From Candidatus Stahliibacteriota bacterium (GTDB taxonomy: Bacteria > Hydrothermota > Tepidihabitantia > SM23-42), in assembly GCA_030606265.1 (NCBI GenBank), contig JAUWGT010000003.1, positions 1 to 35,992 of the forward strand: 35,992 nt of DNA. Reading direction: 5' to 3'. Positions 18,593-26,019 of this stretch are shown one piece after another (the first letter of the stretch is position 1; every line of letters begins with the position of its first letter). The translations under genes were made by a program, and so were the position numbers. A model generated the notes under the pieces. The model made no database searches and was not told where the DNA came from. It was given only the letters and a program-made list of their open reading frames with translations.

Positions 18593-19645
18593 ATGGCAAA
18601 AATGAAAGCAGTTGTGAAAACGAAACCAGAACCAGGTGCTGAACTAGTTGAAATCGACATCCCTACACCAAAACCTGATGAGGTCCTAGTTAAAGTTCTG
18701 GCAACATCAATTTGTGGTACAGATTTACATATTTACGAGTGGAATAAATGGGCCCAGAACCGCATACGCAATATCCCCCAGGTCATGGGTCATGAATTAT
18801 GTGGCGAAGTTATTGAACTGGGAACAAATGTAAGAACCGTACAGAAAGGTGACGTAATTTCAGCTGAAACACACATCGCTTGCAATCATTGCTATCTCTG
18901 TCACACCGGCAATGCACATATTTGCATCAATGGTCGCATCTTTGGGGTTGATGTAAATGGTGTGTTCGCTGAATACGCAGTCGTGCCTTCATCCAATGCC
19001 TGGATATTAGATAAGAAAATCCCCAGAGATTTCGCGTCCGTAATGGAACCGTTGGGCAATGCAGTCCATACTGTCTTGGCTGGTGAAATCAACGGTAATA
19101 CTACCTTGATAACGGGTTGCGGTCCGATTGGAGTAATGAGCATCGCTGTTGCACGAATCTGCGGAGCGACAAAGATAATCGCTACCGACATAAATGAATA
19201 CCGACTCCAAATGGCAAAGAAAGCTGGTGCCGACCTGGTGCTCAATCCAAAAAAAGATGACATTGTACAAAGAGTATTGCAGGAAACCAATGGTCTGGGT
19301 ATTGATGTTGTTCTCGAAATGTCTGGAGTTTCCACTGCAATTCAACAAGGTTTTGATTGTCTACGTCCGGGTGGCAGATTTTCAATCCTCGGTATACCTG
19401 ACAAACCTATGGTGATAGATATCGGCAAAGCAATTGTCTTTAAATATGCTACTGTTCAAGGTATTAATGGTCGTCTTATGTTCTCGACCTGGCATAAAAC
19501 ATCACGTTTCTTGAGTTCGGGTCGGCTTAACCTGGACTCCATCATTACTCATCGTTTTCGTCTTGAAGAATTTGAAAAAGGTATGGAATTGATGAAATCT
19601 GGAAACTGCGGTAAAATACTGCTTTACCCCCACCCGAAAGACTAA
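18593..19645 (+). CDS. tdh: L-threonine 3-dehydrogenase
   Basis: SICGTDLHIYEWNKWAQNRI; GHELCGEV; Zn-binding CNHCYLCHTGNAHIC; ITGCGPIGVMSIAVA. Confidence 0.94.
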   Translation: MAKMKAVVKTKPEPGAELVEIDIPTPKPDEVLVKVLATSICGTDLHIYEWNKWAQNRIRNIPQVMGHELCGEVIELGTNVRTVQKGDVISAETHIACNHCYLCHTGNAHICINGRIFGVDVNGVFAEYAVVPSSNAWILDKKIPRDFASVMEPLGNAVHTVLAGEINGNTTLITGCGPIGVMSIAVARICGATKIIATDINEYRLQMAKKAGADLVLNPKKDDIVQRVLQETNGLGIDVVLEMSGVSTAIQQGFDCLRPGGRFSILGIPDKPMVIDIGKAIVFKYATVQGINGRLMFSTWHKTSRFLSSGRLNLDSIITHRFRLEEFEKGMELMKSGNCGKILLYPHPKD

Positions 19646-19742
19646 TGAACTTCTCGATGCGCTTCGCTTACTCGAAGAAAAATTGTTATTCACCCTCACC
19701 CCCGTATCAAGTACGGGGCAGGCTCTTACCCTCTCCCATCAA

Positions 19743-19872
19743 GAGGCTGTCGAAAAACTCCGCTTGTCATTGCGAGCGAACGAAGTGAGCATGGCAATCT
19801 CATTAATTCTCAATGCTCTCATAAGATTGCTTCGTCGTTTCACTCCTCGCAATGACGTTTATCGACAGGCTC
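19743..19872. repeat. Composite palindromic repeat (dispersed-repeat type)
   Basis: GTCATTGCGAG (19766-19776)/CTCGCAATGAC (19846-19856) perfect; GCAATCT/AGATTGC inside; GAGGCTGTCGA/TCGACAGGCTC outside (1 mismatch). Confidence 0.75.
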
Positions 19873-19926
19873 ATCAAGGGGAAGGAAATATTATGATGTA
19901 TGGCTTACCCGCAATAACAGGATGAG

Positions 19927-20280
19927 ATGATCAAAGGAATTGGTGTCGACATTAACAGGATAAAAAGGTATAATAATGTAAAAAACAAAGACAGATTCCT
20001 GAAACAGTTCTTAAATAACGAAGAGATATCTGAAGCAAATAAAACAAATAATAAAAACCACTACCCGATGGCGCTTTTCGCAATAAAAGAAGCTATTTTC
20101 AAGGCTTTCAAAATAGGATTGTATTTTGGTTCTTACTGGTACGATATTAGTATTAGAAAAGATTTCAAAGTAAATTTATCTGGCTATTTTGGGAAAATGA
20201 TAAAAAGCAGGACAAGAATTTTGGTTTCCAAGACTTGTTCAAAGCAATATGCATTGAGTTTGGCTCTTATCGAAGAATAG
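19927..20280 (+). CDS. acpS: Holo-ACP synthase (AcpS-type 4'-phosphopantetheinyl transferase)
   Basis: MIKGIGVDINRIKR; FAIKEAIFKAF; short single-domain protein. Confidence 0.85.
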   Translation: MIKGIGVDINRIKRYNNVKNKDRFLKQFLNNEEISEANKTNNKNHYPMALFAIKEAIFKAFKIGLYFGSYWYDISIRKDFKVNLSGYFGKMIKSRTRILVSKTCSKQYALSLALIEE

Positions 20281-23614: not shown

Positions 23615-23631
23615 TCCGCTTGAAGCGGATT
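23613..23631 (+). terminator. Hairpin at kbl stop (AATCCGC-TTGAA-GCGGATT), possible attenuator or terminator
   Basis: 7-bp stem, 5-nt loop overlapping the kbl stop; no U-tract. Confidence 0.35.
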
Positions 23632-23780
23632 TGGTTACGTTTGCCGGTTGCGTTGAACGAAATGCGAAACGGTTGCGTAGTCGGGATTTGTTTTGGACAA
23701 AATACGCCAAACGAATATCGACAACGAATCGCTTTTCGAAACCAAGAACCGCGTTTCGAGTTATCGAAGATTAGTAAACT

Positions 23781-24914
23781 ATGACTAATAATACAGCAGA
23801 TGTCATCATAATCGGCGGTGGTATAATAGGATGTGCCACGGGTTTTTATTTAGCAGAAAAAGGATTGAAGGTTTACCTGCTTGAGAAAGACTATCTGACC
23901 GCTGGATCTACAGGTCGCTGCATCGGTGGTATTCGGCAACAGTTTTCCACTAAACTCAGTATCAGAGTAGCCATGGAATCGATGAAAAAATTTGAGTCCA
24001 TGACCGAGGTATTAGATCAGGATGTTGAATTCCATCGCGGTGGCTATCTATTTTTGGCCCATAGTGAAGCTAAGAAAACAACCTATCTTGAATTGATCAA
24101 ATTGCAACAAAGTATGGGGCTTGATGTCGACTATATCAGTCGCGATGACATCGAAAAAATCGTACCAGGTATAAGCACGGATGATTTATTAGGTGGTGCT
24201 TACTGTCCAAGTGATGCTCAGGCAAACCCATTCTTATGTGTTGATGGCTATGCGAAACATATAAGAAAAAACGGCGCAGTCATCCCCCATAAAGAAATCA
24301 CCAGCATAAATATCAAAGCTGGCAAAGTGAGATCAATAACGACCAATGATAATGAAACATATTATGCACCAATAATCGTTAATGCTGCAGGTCCGTTCGT
24401 AAAAAACGTTGCACAACTCGTCGACATTGATGTACCTATTGAAGCAGAACGCCATGAAGCTTTGATAACTGAACCCATGGAAAGATTCTTTGATATGATG
24501 ATCGTTGATTACCGCAATGATGGATGCTACTTTAACCAGAAGTGGGGTAAAGGGAGTATTATTGGTTGCTACACACCCAAACCAAATGCCCCTGGTCAAA
24601 GCTTAGGTACTTCATTTGAATTTGTCAAGGAAATGGGACGACGAACTGGTCGCTTAATCCCCGGATTGGCAAACATAAAGATTATTCGTCAATGGTCAGG
24701 GAGTTACGAAATGACCCCAGATGGTAATCCAATCCTTGACAAAACCGATATCCAGGGGTTTTATATTGTCGGCGGCATGTGCGGTCATGGGTTTATGTTA
24801 GGACCAGAGATTGGCTCGCTCGCCGCTGATTTCATCGCCGAAGGAAAAACTTCTTATGACATCAGCACCTTTGCCCTGAAACGAGATTATACCAGTAAAG
24901 AAGTGATGAAATGA
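23781..24914 (+). CDS. FAD-dependent amine/amino-acid oxidoreductase (DAO family, sarcosine oxidase beta-like)
   Basis: VIIIGGGIIGCATGFYLAEKG dinucleotide-binding motif; AGSTGRCIGGIRQQFST; GFYIVGGMCGHGFMLGPEIG. Confidence 0.88.
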   Translation: MTNNTADVIIIGGGIIGCATGFYLAEKGLKVYLLEKDYLTAGSTGRCIGGIRQQFSTKLSIRVAMESMKKFESMTEVLDQDVEFHRGGYLFLAHSEAKKTTYLELIKLQQSMGLDVDYISRDDIEKIVPGISTDDLLGGAYCPSDAQANPFLCVDGYAKHIRKNGAVIPHKEITSINIKAGKVRSITTNDNETYYAPIIVNAAGPFVKNVAQLVDIDVPIEAERHEALITEPMERFFDMMIVDYRNDGCYFNQKWGKGSIIGCYTPKPNAPGQSLGTSFEFVKEMGRRTGRLIPGLANIKIIRQWSGSYEMTPDGNPILDKTDIQGFYIVGGMCGHGFMLGPEIGSLAADFIAEGKTSYDISTFALKRDYTSKEVMK

Positions 24915-26019
24915 TTCGATTCAAGGTTCTTAACAGAGATCCTAATTCGCAAGCCCGGACTGGTGTCTTGAAAACACCACACTATGAAGTTGCAACCCCG
25001 AACTTTATGACCGTAGCCACTCAAGCATCAGTAAAAGCAACCTCGCCTGCAGAACTGAAAAGGATCGGAGTTCAGATAATAGTAGCTAATACGTATCATT
25101 TGATGCTCCGACCCACATCAAAGCTCATTGAAAAACTTGGTGGTCTACATAAGTTCATGAATTGGGACCGAGCGATACTCACTGATTCAGGTGGATTCCA
25201 GGCTTATTCTCTAAGCCAACTAATAAAGATCAGTGATGAAGGTATTAGATTTTCATCCCACCTTGATGGCTCCAAGCATTTCCTGAGCCCCGAGCTCGCA
25301 GTTGAGATCCAGAATGAACTGGGTTCAGATATTGCTATGGTATTGGATTTCTTCACTGCTTATCCCGCACAATTCCTCGATGCCAGAATGGCAGTGGAGC
25401 GTACTGTTAATTGGGCAAAACGGAGTCTCAACGTAAAAAAAAAGTCCCCTTATTCGGCATAATCCAAGGAGCTACGTACAAAGAACTGCGCCGCGAATGC
25501 ACACAACGCATCCTTGATCTTAAGTTTGCCGGTTATGGTCTCGGTGGACTCATGATCGGTGAGCCTTCATTGCTAACCAATGAAATGGTGCAGATTTGCA
25601 CTGGGCTGATCCCTAAGAATAAAATGAGGTACCTTATGGGGTGTGGCTATCCTGAGGATATCCTTGAATCAGTAGAACAAGGCATTGATCTGTTCGATTG
25701 TGTCCTGCCAACACGCAATGGTCGAACCGGGATGGCGTTCACTTCCCAGGGCAAAGTGGTTATCAAAGCTGGTAAATACGCTGAAGAAGATGCACCTCTT
25801 GACAAAAACTGTCACTGTTACACCTGTCGAAATTTCTCCCGTGCTTATATAAGACATCTATTCAACACCGGTGAAATCCTCGCCGGTCGATTAGTCAGTT
25901 ATCATAATATCCATTTTTATATGGAGTTAATGACCGGCATCAGAAAAAGCATAGACCAAGGGAATTTCCTGCAATTCAAGAAAAAAACAGGCAAGAATTT
26001 CGATTTTCGCGAAGGCTGA
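24911..26019 (+). CDS. tgt: tRNA-guanine transglycosylase (Tgt), split in two frames at an A9 run (ORFs 24911..25462 and 25411..26019)
   Basis: ORF1 has [16 protein letters not shown]2 has [28 protein letters not shown] (nucleophile) and [16 protein letters not shown] (Zn site). The two join if one extra A is read in 25435-25443. Confidence 0.92.

Follow-up and report, generated by a model that had tools for sequence, protein, structure and literature searches.

Can the acetyl group of the threonine cleavage pathway be carried by a protein instead of coenzyme A (CoA)? The question is raised by a stretch of 35,992 nucleotides (nt) of contig JAUWGT010000003.1 from a Candidatus Stahliibacteriota bacterium, called here the window, whose genome is metagenome-assembled, 2.28 Mb in size and 89% complete. 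Glycine C-acetyltransferase (Kbl) is a textbook CoA enzyme. Between positions 18593 and 26019 of the window, however, the gene for Kbl and that for L-threonine 3-dehydrogenase (tdh) stand together with those of an acyl carrier protein (ACP), an acetate ligase and a phosphopantetheinyl transferase (PPTase). All the genes named in the original prediction are present on the plus strand and in the order claimed: tdh, the AcpS-type PPTase, the ligase, the ACP, kbl, a flavin (FAD) oxidase and tgt. We consider it probable that the Kbl step uses the dedicated ACP in place of CoA, regardless of the direction in which it runs. Taken part by part, the ACP is likely a substrate of both the Kbl and the ligase, the acyl group is, with nearly as much confidence, acetyl, and the chances that the direction is threonine cleavage are about even.

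The original prediction had proposed conserved synteny in related genomes as its own test, and the order acs-acp-kbl recurs across many phyla; because of this recurrence the arrangement is far beyond chance. Nearly all the sequences compared are metagenome assemblies, and they came from two samples. In the first, of 80 genomes with the window's own counted in, 25 hold a window-type ACP at high similarity, and all 25 also hold a ligase 67-100% identical. A matching ligase occurs otherwise in only two genomes, one with its kbl cut at the contig start and one in which no such kbl was found. Where the contig does not break off, kbl starts 9-31 nt after the ACP, and the Kbl search of these genomes, which is unbiased on whether the ACP-linked (type A) enzyme, KblA, occurs alone, found none away from an ACP, contig edges excepted. 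In the second sample, one genome per species was scanned with the ACP, which gave 436 relatives, and the best 80 loci were fetched; having been fetched by ACP, they are by themselves no proof that KblA never occurs alone. Downstream of the ACP, kbl is found in 78 of these 80 loci at a median gap of 16 nt, and the other two end just past the ACP. An acs gene is upstream in 70, a recognisable PPTase is present in 24, and the fetched stretch contains a Tdh-family dehydrogenase in 26, weak homologues among them. The conserved core is acs-acp-kbl, with acpS and tdh as frequent companions. The bacteria that carry the cassette go by about twelve different phylum names; the record titles of the best 80 include WOR-3, Bacteroidota, Chlorobiaceae, Ignavibacteria, Acidobacteria, Aminicenantes, Zixibacteria, Edwardsbacteria, Fischerbacteria, Planctomycetales, Calditrichaeota, Riflebacteria and others.

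In the window's family, the locus tdh-X-DAO-tgt-pilM, where DAO is the FAD oxidase gene, has two states. X is acpS-acs-acp-kblA in most of the family's genomes and a lone kblB, encoding the ordinary (type B) Kbl, in G001 (which belongs to the same genus), G011, G014, G015 and G019; G006 is alike up to its contig end. Between G001 and the window, tdh is 97% and DAO 96% identical, acpS-acs-acp is absent from G001, and its kblB shares only 72% identity with kblA. High identity of the flanks combined with 72% for Kbl shows that the four genes were gained or lost jointly and that Kbl was exchanged too. The ACP module was thus not inserted beside an unchanged Kbl, and acpS-acs-acp-kblA is a self-contained cassette that moves as a unit. 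The PPTase counts fit such a joint gain or loss: all 12 cassette genomes have two, and all seven cassette-free genomes have one.

The product of kblA (22367-23614, plus strand) scores 608.7 bits against TIGR01822, whose cut-off is 493, and represents an ACP-linked subfamily of glycine C-acetyltransferases. Its model has the Kbl fold (pLDDT 92.5; TM 0.90-0.91 to solved Kbls). In a tree of less redundant rows, 77 of type A and 38 of type B, KblA forms a single clade with an SH-aLRT value of 100. Residues were compared over 97 type A and 40 type B rows, which are related sequences with some WOR-3 contigs present twice, so that the less redundant tree and not a Fisher p value over these rows is taken as evidence; positions follow the chain numbering of 1FC4 (E. 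coli Kbl), which is that of UniProt + 3. The catalytic residues around pyridoxal phosphate (PLP), namely Lys247, His139, Asp213, His216, Asn53 and Arg369/371, are kept in all 97 type A rows. Near-fixed changes of KblA are Asn138 to Val, Tyr111 to Phe, Glu/Asp163 to His, Leu267 to Cys and Ser271 to Ala or Gly, and the window's protein carries the diagnostic residues V142, L157, H167, C269 and A273. At the position of Arg153, Arg or Lys is present in 40 of 40 ordinary Kbls and in 2 of 97 KblAs; in the window it is Leu157. From its spacing, 14 residues past the PLP-stacking His (His285 in human ALAS2), we infer that position 153 corresponds to Lys299 of ALAS2. Lys299 and Arg293 of ALAS2 sit at the ADP part of succinyl-CoA (PMC7272653). 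Basic residues have also been gained in KblA, R140 in 97 of 97 rows as well as R303 and R79, and it is our guess that these dock the ACP. The distances of Kbl, ligase and ACP correlate at 0.68-0.75 over 48 loci (with no control gene), as would be expected from co-inheritance.

The ligase (20289-21989, plus strand) falls in the Acs branch by score and is of the PRK04319 type (768 bits against the acetate--CoA ligase model, cut-off 729). Its acetate pocket (Val310, Thr311, Val386, Trp414) and the catalytic Lys609 are kept in 78-79 of the 79 ligases linked to the cassette. The equivalent of Trp414 is invariant, so that acetate or propionate should be favoured over a longer acyl chain. The equivalent of Arg526, in the A8 motif, is Leu in all 79 linked ligases and in four further cassette-type copies, whereas Arg is present in all 19 comparators, which comprise unlinked copies and the Acs chains of the Protein Data Bank (PDB). 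In Acs, Arg526 binds the phosphate of the adenylate and assists thioester formation; its mutation raises the Km for CoA, strongly or mildly according to the study (PMC10455477). Loss of Arg191 was also considered as a mark of CoA rejection and was discarded as unspecific; the ordinary PRK04319-type AcsA (9G79) is without Arg191 as well. Fatty acyl-AMP ligases (FAALs) are marked by a FAAL-specific insertion and a plugged CoA pocket (PMC8460268). The cassette enzyme is probably an acetate:ACP ligase. KblA and the ligase thus have matched clade-wide losses at residues of CoA contact or of the CoA half-reaction, and a carrier-tethered acetyl group is the best reading of these losses together with the synteny, as the original prediction had supposed in suggesting that an acyl group may be handled on a carrier protein.

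The carrier itself (22103-22357, plus strand, GTG start) matches the Pfam PP-binding family at 22.5-23.1 bits (cut-off 20.8), against 49.9 bits for another ACP of the same genome with this model, PF00550. Its 4'-phosphopantetheine serine sits in GIVDSFSM, in which Asp39-Ser40 is invariant. It has the carrier-protein fold and is nearest, at a TM of about 0.8, to PigG and PltL, which are free-standing carriers loaded by ANL ligases. The match to the housekeeping fatty-acid ACP model TIGR00517 is 27 bits, under the cut-off of 70, and the cassette ACP is far from ACPs of that kind. The AcpS-type PPTase (19927-20280, plus strand) is an extra copy, which scores 45 bits with Pfam ACPS, above cut-off, and 50.7 bits with the acpS equivalog, under its cut-off of 59.8.

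How would such a cassette work? By analogy with the serine palmitoyltransferase (SPT) system SPT-AcpR-AasR, and in the light of the altered residues, we expect KblA to work with acetyl-ACP and the ligase to link this thioester to acetate. The extra PPTase would convert the ACP to holo-ACP. KblA would interconvert 2-amino-3-ketobutyrate plus holo-ACP with glycine plus acetyl-ACP, and the ligase would interconvert acetyl-ACP and acetate via acetyl-AMP. Since the WOR-3 cassette stands behind tdh in the slot of an ordinary kbl, the net direction is taken as threonine breakdown. Flow in WOR-3 would lead from threonine to 2-amino-3-ketobutyrate, with formation of NADH, then to glycine and acetyl-ACP, and finally to acetate, the ligase running backwards and recharging AMP and pyrophosphate to ATP. 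This would amount to a carrier-protein threonine fermentation that gains substrate-level ATP from acetyl-ACP and bypasses acetyl-CoA in an amino-acid-fermenting lineage, a proposal that we put forward tentatively and at less than even chances.

The gene content of related genomes offers some support for cleavage. Glycine decarboxylase (GcvP) is found at more than 420 bits in 12 of 13 genomes and an H+-pyrophosphatase in all 13, and IlvD was found in none of the 13 checked, which suggests amino-acid feeders. A full-length ADP-forming acetate ligase was not found in the 16 f1/f2 genomes checked, nor was a full-length acetate kinase, a single contig of the window's genome excepted. In the single-contig relatives G005, G007, G008, G018 and G020, acetate kinase matches are partial only, in frames of about 300-490 residues, and no full-length ADP-forming acetate ligase was found.

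The explanation that survives best beside cleavage is the same carrier chemistry in reverse, which we regard as possible without favouring it. The ligase would spend ATP to form acetyl-ACP, KblA would condense it with glycine to 2-amino-3-ketobutyrate, and either Tdh would make threonine or decarboxylation would give aminoacetone; the carrier would separate an anabolic acetyl pool from catabolic acetyl-CoA, as in SPT-AcpR-AasR. AMP-forming Acs normally activates acetate, so that ATP-driven ligation is its usual direction and the recovery of ATP the opposite one, which tells against fermentation. The kblA-kblB tandems described below make sense if one enzyme runs each way, and SPT, which with AcpR and AasR forms the analogue that has been studied best, works in an anabolic pathway (PMC9386255). 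Several WOR-3 genomes, single-contig ones included, are without a thrC match, as would suit a biosynthetic role, but this absence does not track the cassette: the window's genome has thrC, and g5 genomes free of the cassette lack it as well. On this ground the absence of thrC was ruled out as proof that the pathway is biosynthetic. Against condensation also speak the tdh-DAO slot, which is common to ordinary kblB, and the WOR-3 genomes without IlvD, which look like amino-acid consumers.

Other observations weigh against carrier-dependent chemistry in either direction. KblA keeps a basic residue at the equivalent of ALAS2 Arg293 (R in 90 of 97 rows, K in 7). The equivalent of Arg584, which contacts the 3'-phosphate of CoA, is Arg in all 79 linked ligases, and the window's ligase has an Arg aligned with Arg191; given these two residues, CoA may still be used by the ligase. 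Studies disagree on the effect of Arg526, whose mutation lowers catalysis only twofold in Salmonella Acs but severely in a methanogen Acs (PMC10455477). The tandem of kblA with an ordinary kblB in some phyla is unexplained by simple replacement of one by the other. Could Kbl and the ligase then follow ordinary CoA chemistry, with the ACP and the PPTase serving an unlinked reaction or regulating them? The retained Arg584 and the window's Arg191 would agree with this, as would the match of KblA to TIGR01822, which is as good as that of ordinary Kbl. The ACP, however, accompanies a single Kbl clade and adjoins it across phyla, all four genes move jointly in the cassette exchange, the basic residue at the CoA site is gone in 95 of the 97 KblAs, and Arg526 is gone in all linked ligases. 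We consider this explanation improbable.

It is likewise improbable that KblA in vivo uses some carrier-bound acyl group to make an aminoketone other than 2-amino-3-ketobutyrate, destined for a lipid or a secondary metabolite: the clade's changes by the PLP site (N138V, Y111F, S271A and T257V in the E. coli chain) could alter substrate choice, and tdh is not adjacent in many loci outside WOR-3, but the ligase shows no variation at Trp414 or elsewhere in its acetate pocket, tdh or a Tdh-like medium-chain dehydrogenase/reductase (MDR) is present in 26 of the 80 fetched loci, weak homologues included, and recurrent biosynthetic neighbours were not found over the 80 loci.

Several features of the cassette loci lie outside the question of the carrier. 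In many Bacteroidota, Chlorobiota, Ignavibacteriota and other loci, the ACP-linked Kbl is succeeded by an ordinary one of the CoA type, in a kblA-kblB tandem (L105:7265-9828; also L118, L120, L123, L146, L163, L171 and others). Both in the tree and in its residues, this second, downstream kbl, present in many non-WOR-3 loci, agrees with ordinary Kbl. The tandem could possibly encode a heterodimer or two enzymes of opposed directions. An MDR dehydrogenase of about 409 residues is encoded upstream of the cassette at L105:3341-4567 and in the related loci L108, L118, L120, L123 and L126; it is a Tdh homologue under the Tdh cut-off (265 of 380 bits). Neighbour clustering over the 80 loci, tried for a clue to the product, returned nothing beyond housekeeping genes, such as rsmB, PFK and sdhAB, and genes of a single lineage.

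In the window, tdh (18593-19645, plus strand) encodes a zinc MDR-type enzyme with 472 bits against TIGR00692 (cut-off 458); tdh or a Tdh-like MDR also adjoins the cassette in Zixibacteria and in Bacteroidota/Ignavibacteria loci. The two downstream genes, which the original prediction had counted into the operon, are neighbours confined to the WOR-3 neighbourhood and not cassette parts. The FAD-dependent oxidoreductase (Pfam DAO; 23781-24914, plus strand; nearest solved chain 1y56_B) adjoins the ordinary CoA-type kblB in sister genomes, and outside WOR-3 no locus with the module was found to have it; its membership was ruled out. The tgt gene (24911-26019, plus strand), which overlaps the end of DAO, is not a single open reading frame as had been assumed but is split by a one-base frameshift at a run of nine A (A9) at 25435-25443. 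The identical A9 and shift are present in 15 of the 19 WOR-3 genomes with a readable region, the window included, in assemblies of differing origin. Four relatives, of which two have GTT-A9, encode tgt in a single frame. The frame would be restored if A9 were read as A10, and the shift is conserved; rather than a sequencing error it appears to be transcriptional slippage or -1 frameshifting that has been conserved in this gene for tRNA-guanine transglycosylase. A literature search on slippage in tgt found no paper.

The spacing and the promoter of the locus had been described too simply. Short gaps or overlaps hold for acpS-acs (8 nt), acp-kbl (9 nt) and the overlap of DAO with tgt; the three other gaps are of 113-281 nt (tdh-acpS 281, acs-acp 113, kbl-DAO 166). 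The clear promoter reported upstream of tdh does correspond to an 11/12 consensus match (TTGACT-16-TATAAT, 18550-18577), but similar matches occur elsewhere in the window: a second 11/12 match (19946-19974) falls where acpS begins, a 12/12 match stands at 26178, before the next operon, and the scan gave 28 promoter-like sites where 21 were expected. The tdh-acpS gap is filled by pieces of dispersed repeat elements (19690-19900), with 22 matches in the window's own genome including itself, that is, at 21 other places. Searches for viral carriage and, with PADLOC, for a defence system gave no match.

If the carrier-dependent reading is true, central amino-acid metabolism is divided into separate CoA and ACP pools. 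Such a division is known for fatty acids and bacterial sphingolipids and is not described for threonine or glycine in the papers searched, in which no ACP-dependent Kbl was found either. Curated models would call kblA a plain glycine C-acetyltransferase and its ligase an acetate--CoA ligase. More than 400 stretches in the one-genome-per-species data encode a relative of the ACP, and the metabolic models of these uncultured phyla would then be wrong at the Kbl step. Kbl position 157 and ligase position 460 offer themselves for mutational tests of the choice between CoA and ACP.

The cassette has counterparts among known systems, each of which it resembles in part. The ordinary Tdh-Kbl pathway (E. 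coli; PDB 1FC4, 7BXP and 3TQX) has enzymes of the same families, KblA being 52-56% identical to the solved Kbls, but it runs on CoA and involves neither an ACP nor a ligase nor a PPTase. AcsA of the PRK04319 type (PDB 9G79) belongs by score to the same subfamily as the ligase and shares the acetate pocket and the catalytic Lys; the cassette ligase differs in the Leu at the Arg526 position and in being tied to a carrier-protein gene. Acceptance of an ACP thioester, pimeloyl-ACP, is known for BioF, 8-amino-7-oxononanoate synthase (PDB 8DLE), which is about 29% identical to the KblA model, relies on the housekeeping ACP and has no dedicated ligase. Citrate lyase and malonate decarboxylase carry acetyl on a dedicated ACP, in citrate lyase with an acetate:ACP ligase, but with other enzymes, another prosthetic group and no PLP chemistry. 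The closest likeness is to SPT-AcpR-AasR of Rhodobacteria (CC_1162, CC_1163 and CC_1165 in Caulobacter), where experiments showed that the ligase selectively loads its own ACP and that SPT prefers acyl-ACP (PMC9386255). There, too, an alpha-oxoamine synthase is encoded with a dedicated ACP and a dedicated ANL ligase. SPT takes L-serine and a long-chain acyl group, decarboxylates and serves lipids; here the genes are those of a Kbl orthologue, of an Acs-type ligase whose pocket is that for acetate, of a PPTase dedicated to the system and of a threonine dehydrogenase, and KblA reaches 277 bits with the SPT model NF047599, where the cut-off is 500. The cassette would thus work like SPT-AcpR-AasR without being a member of that system.

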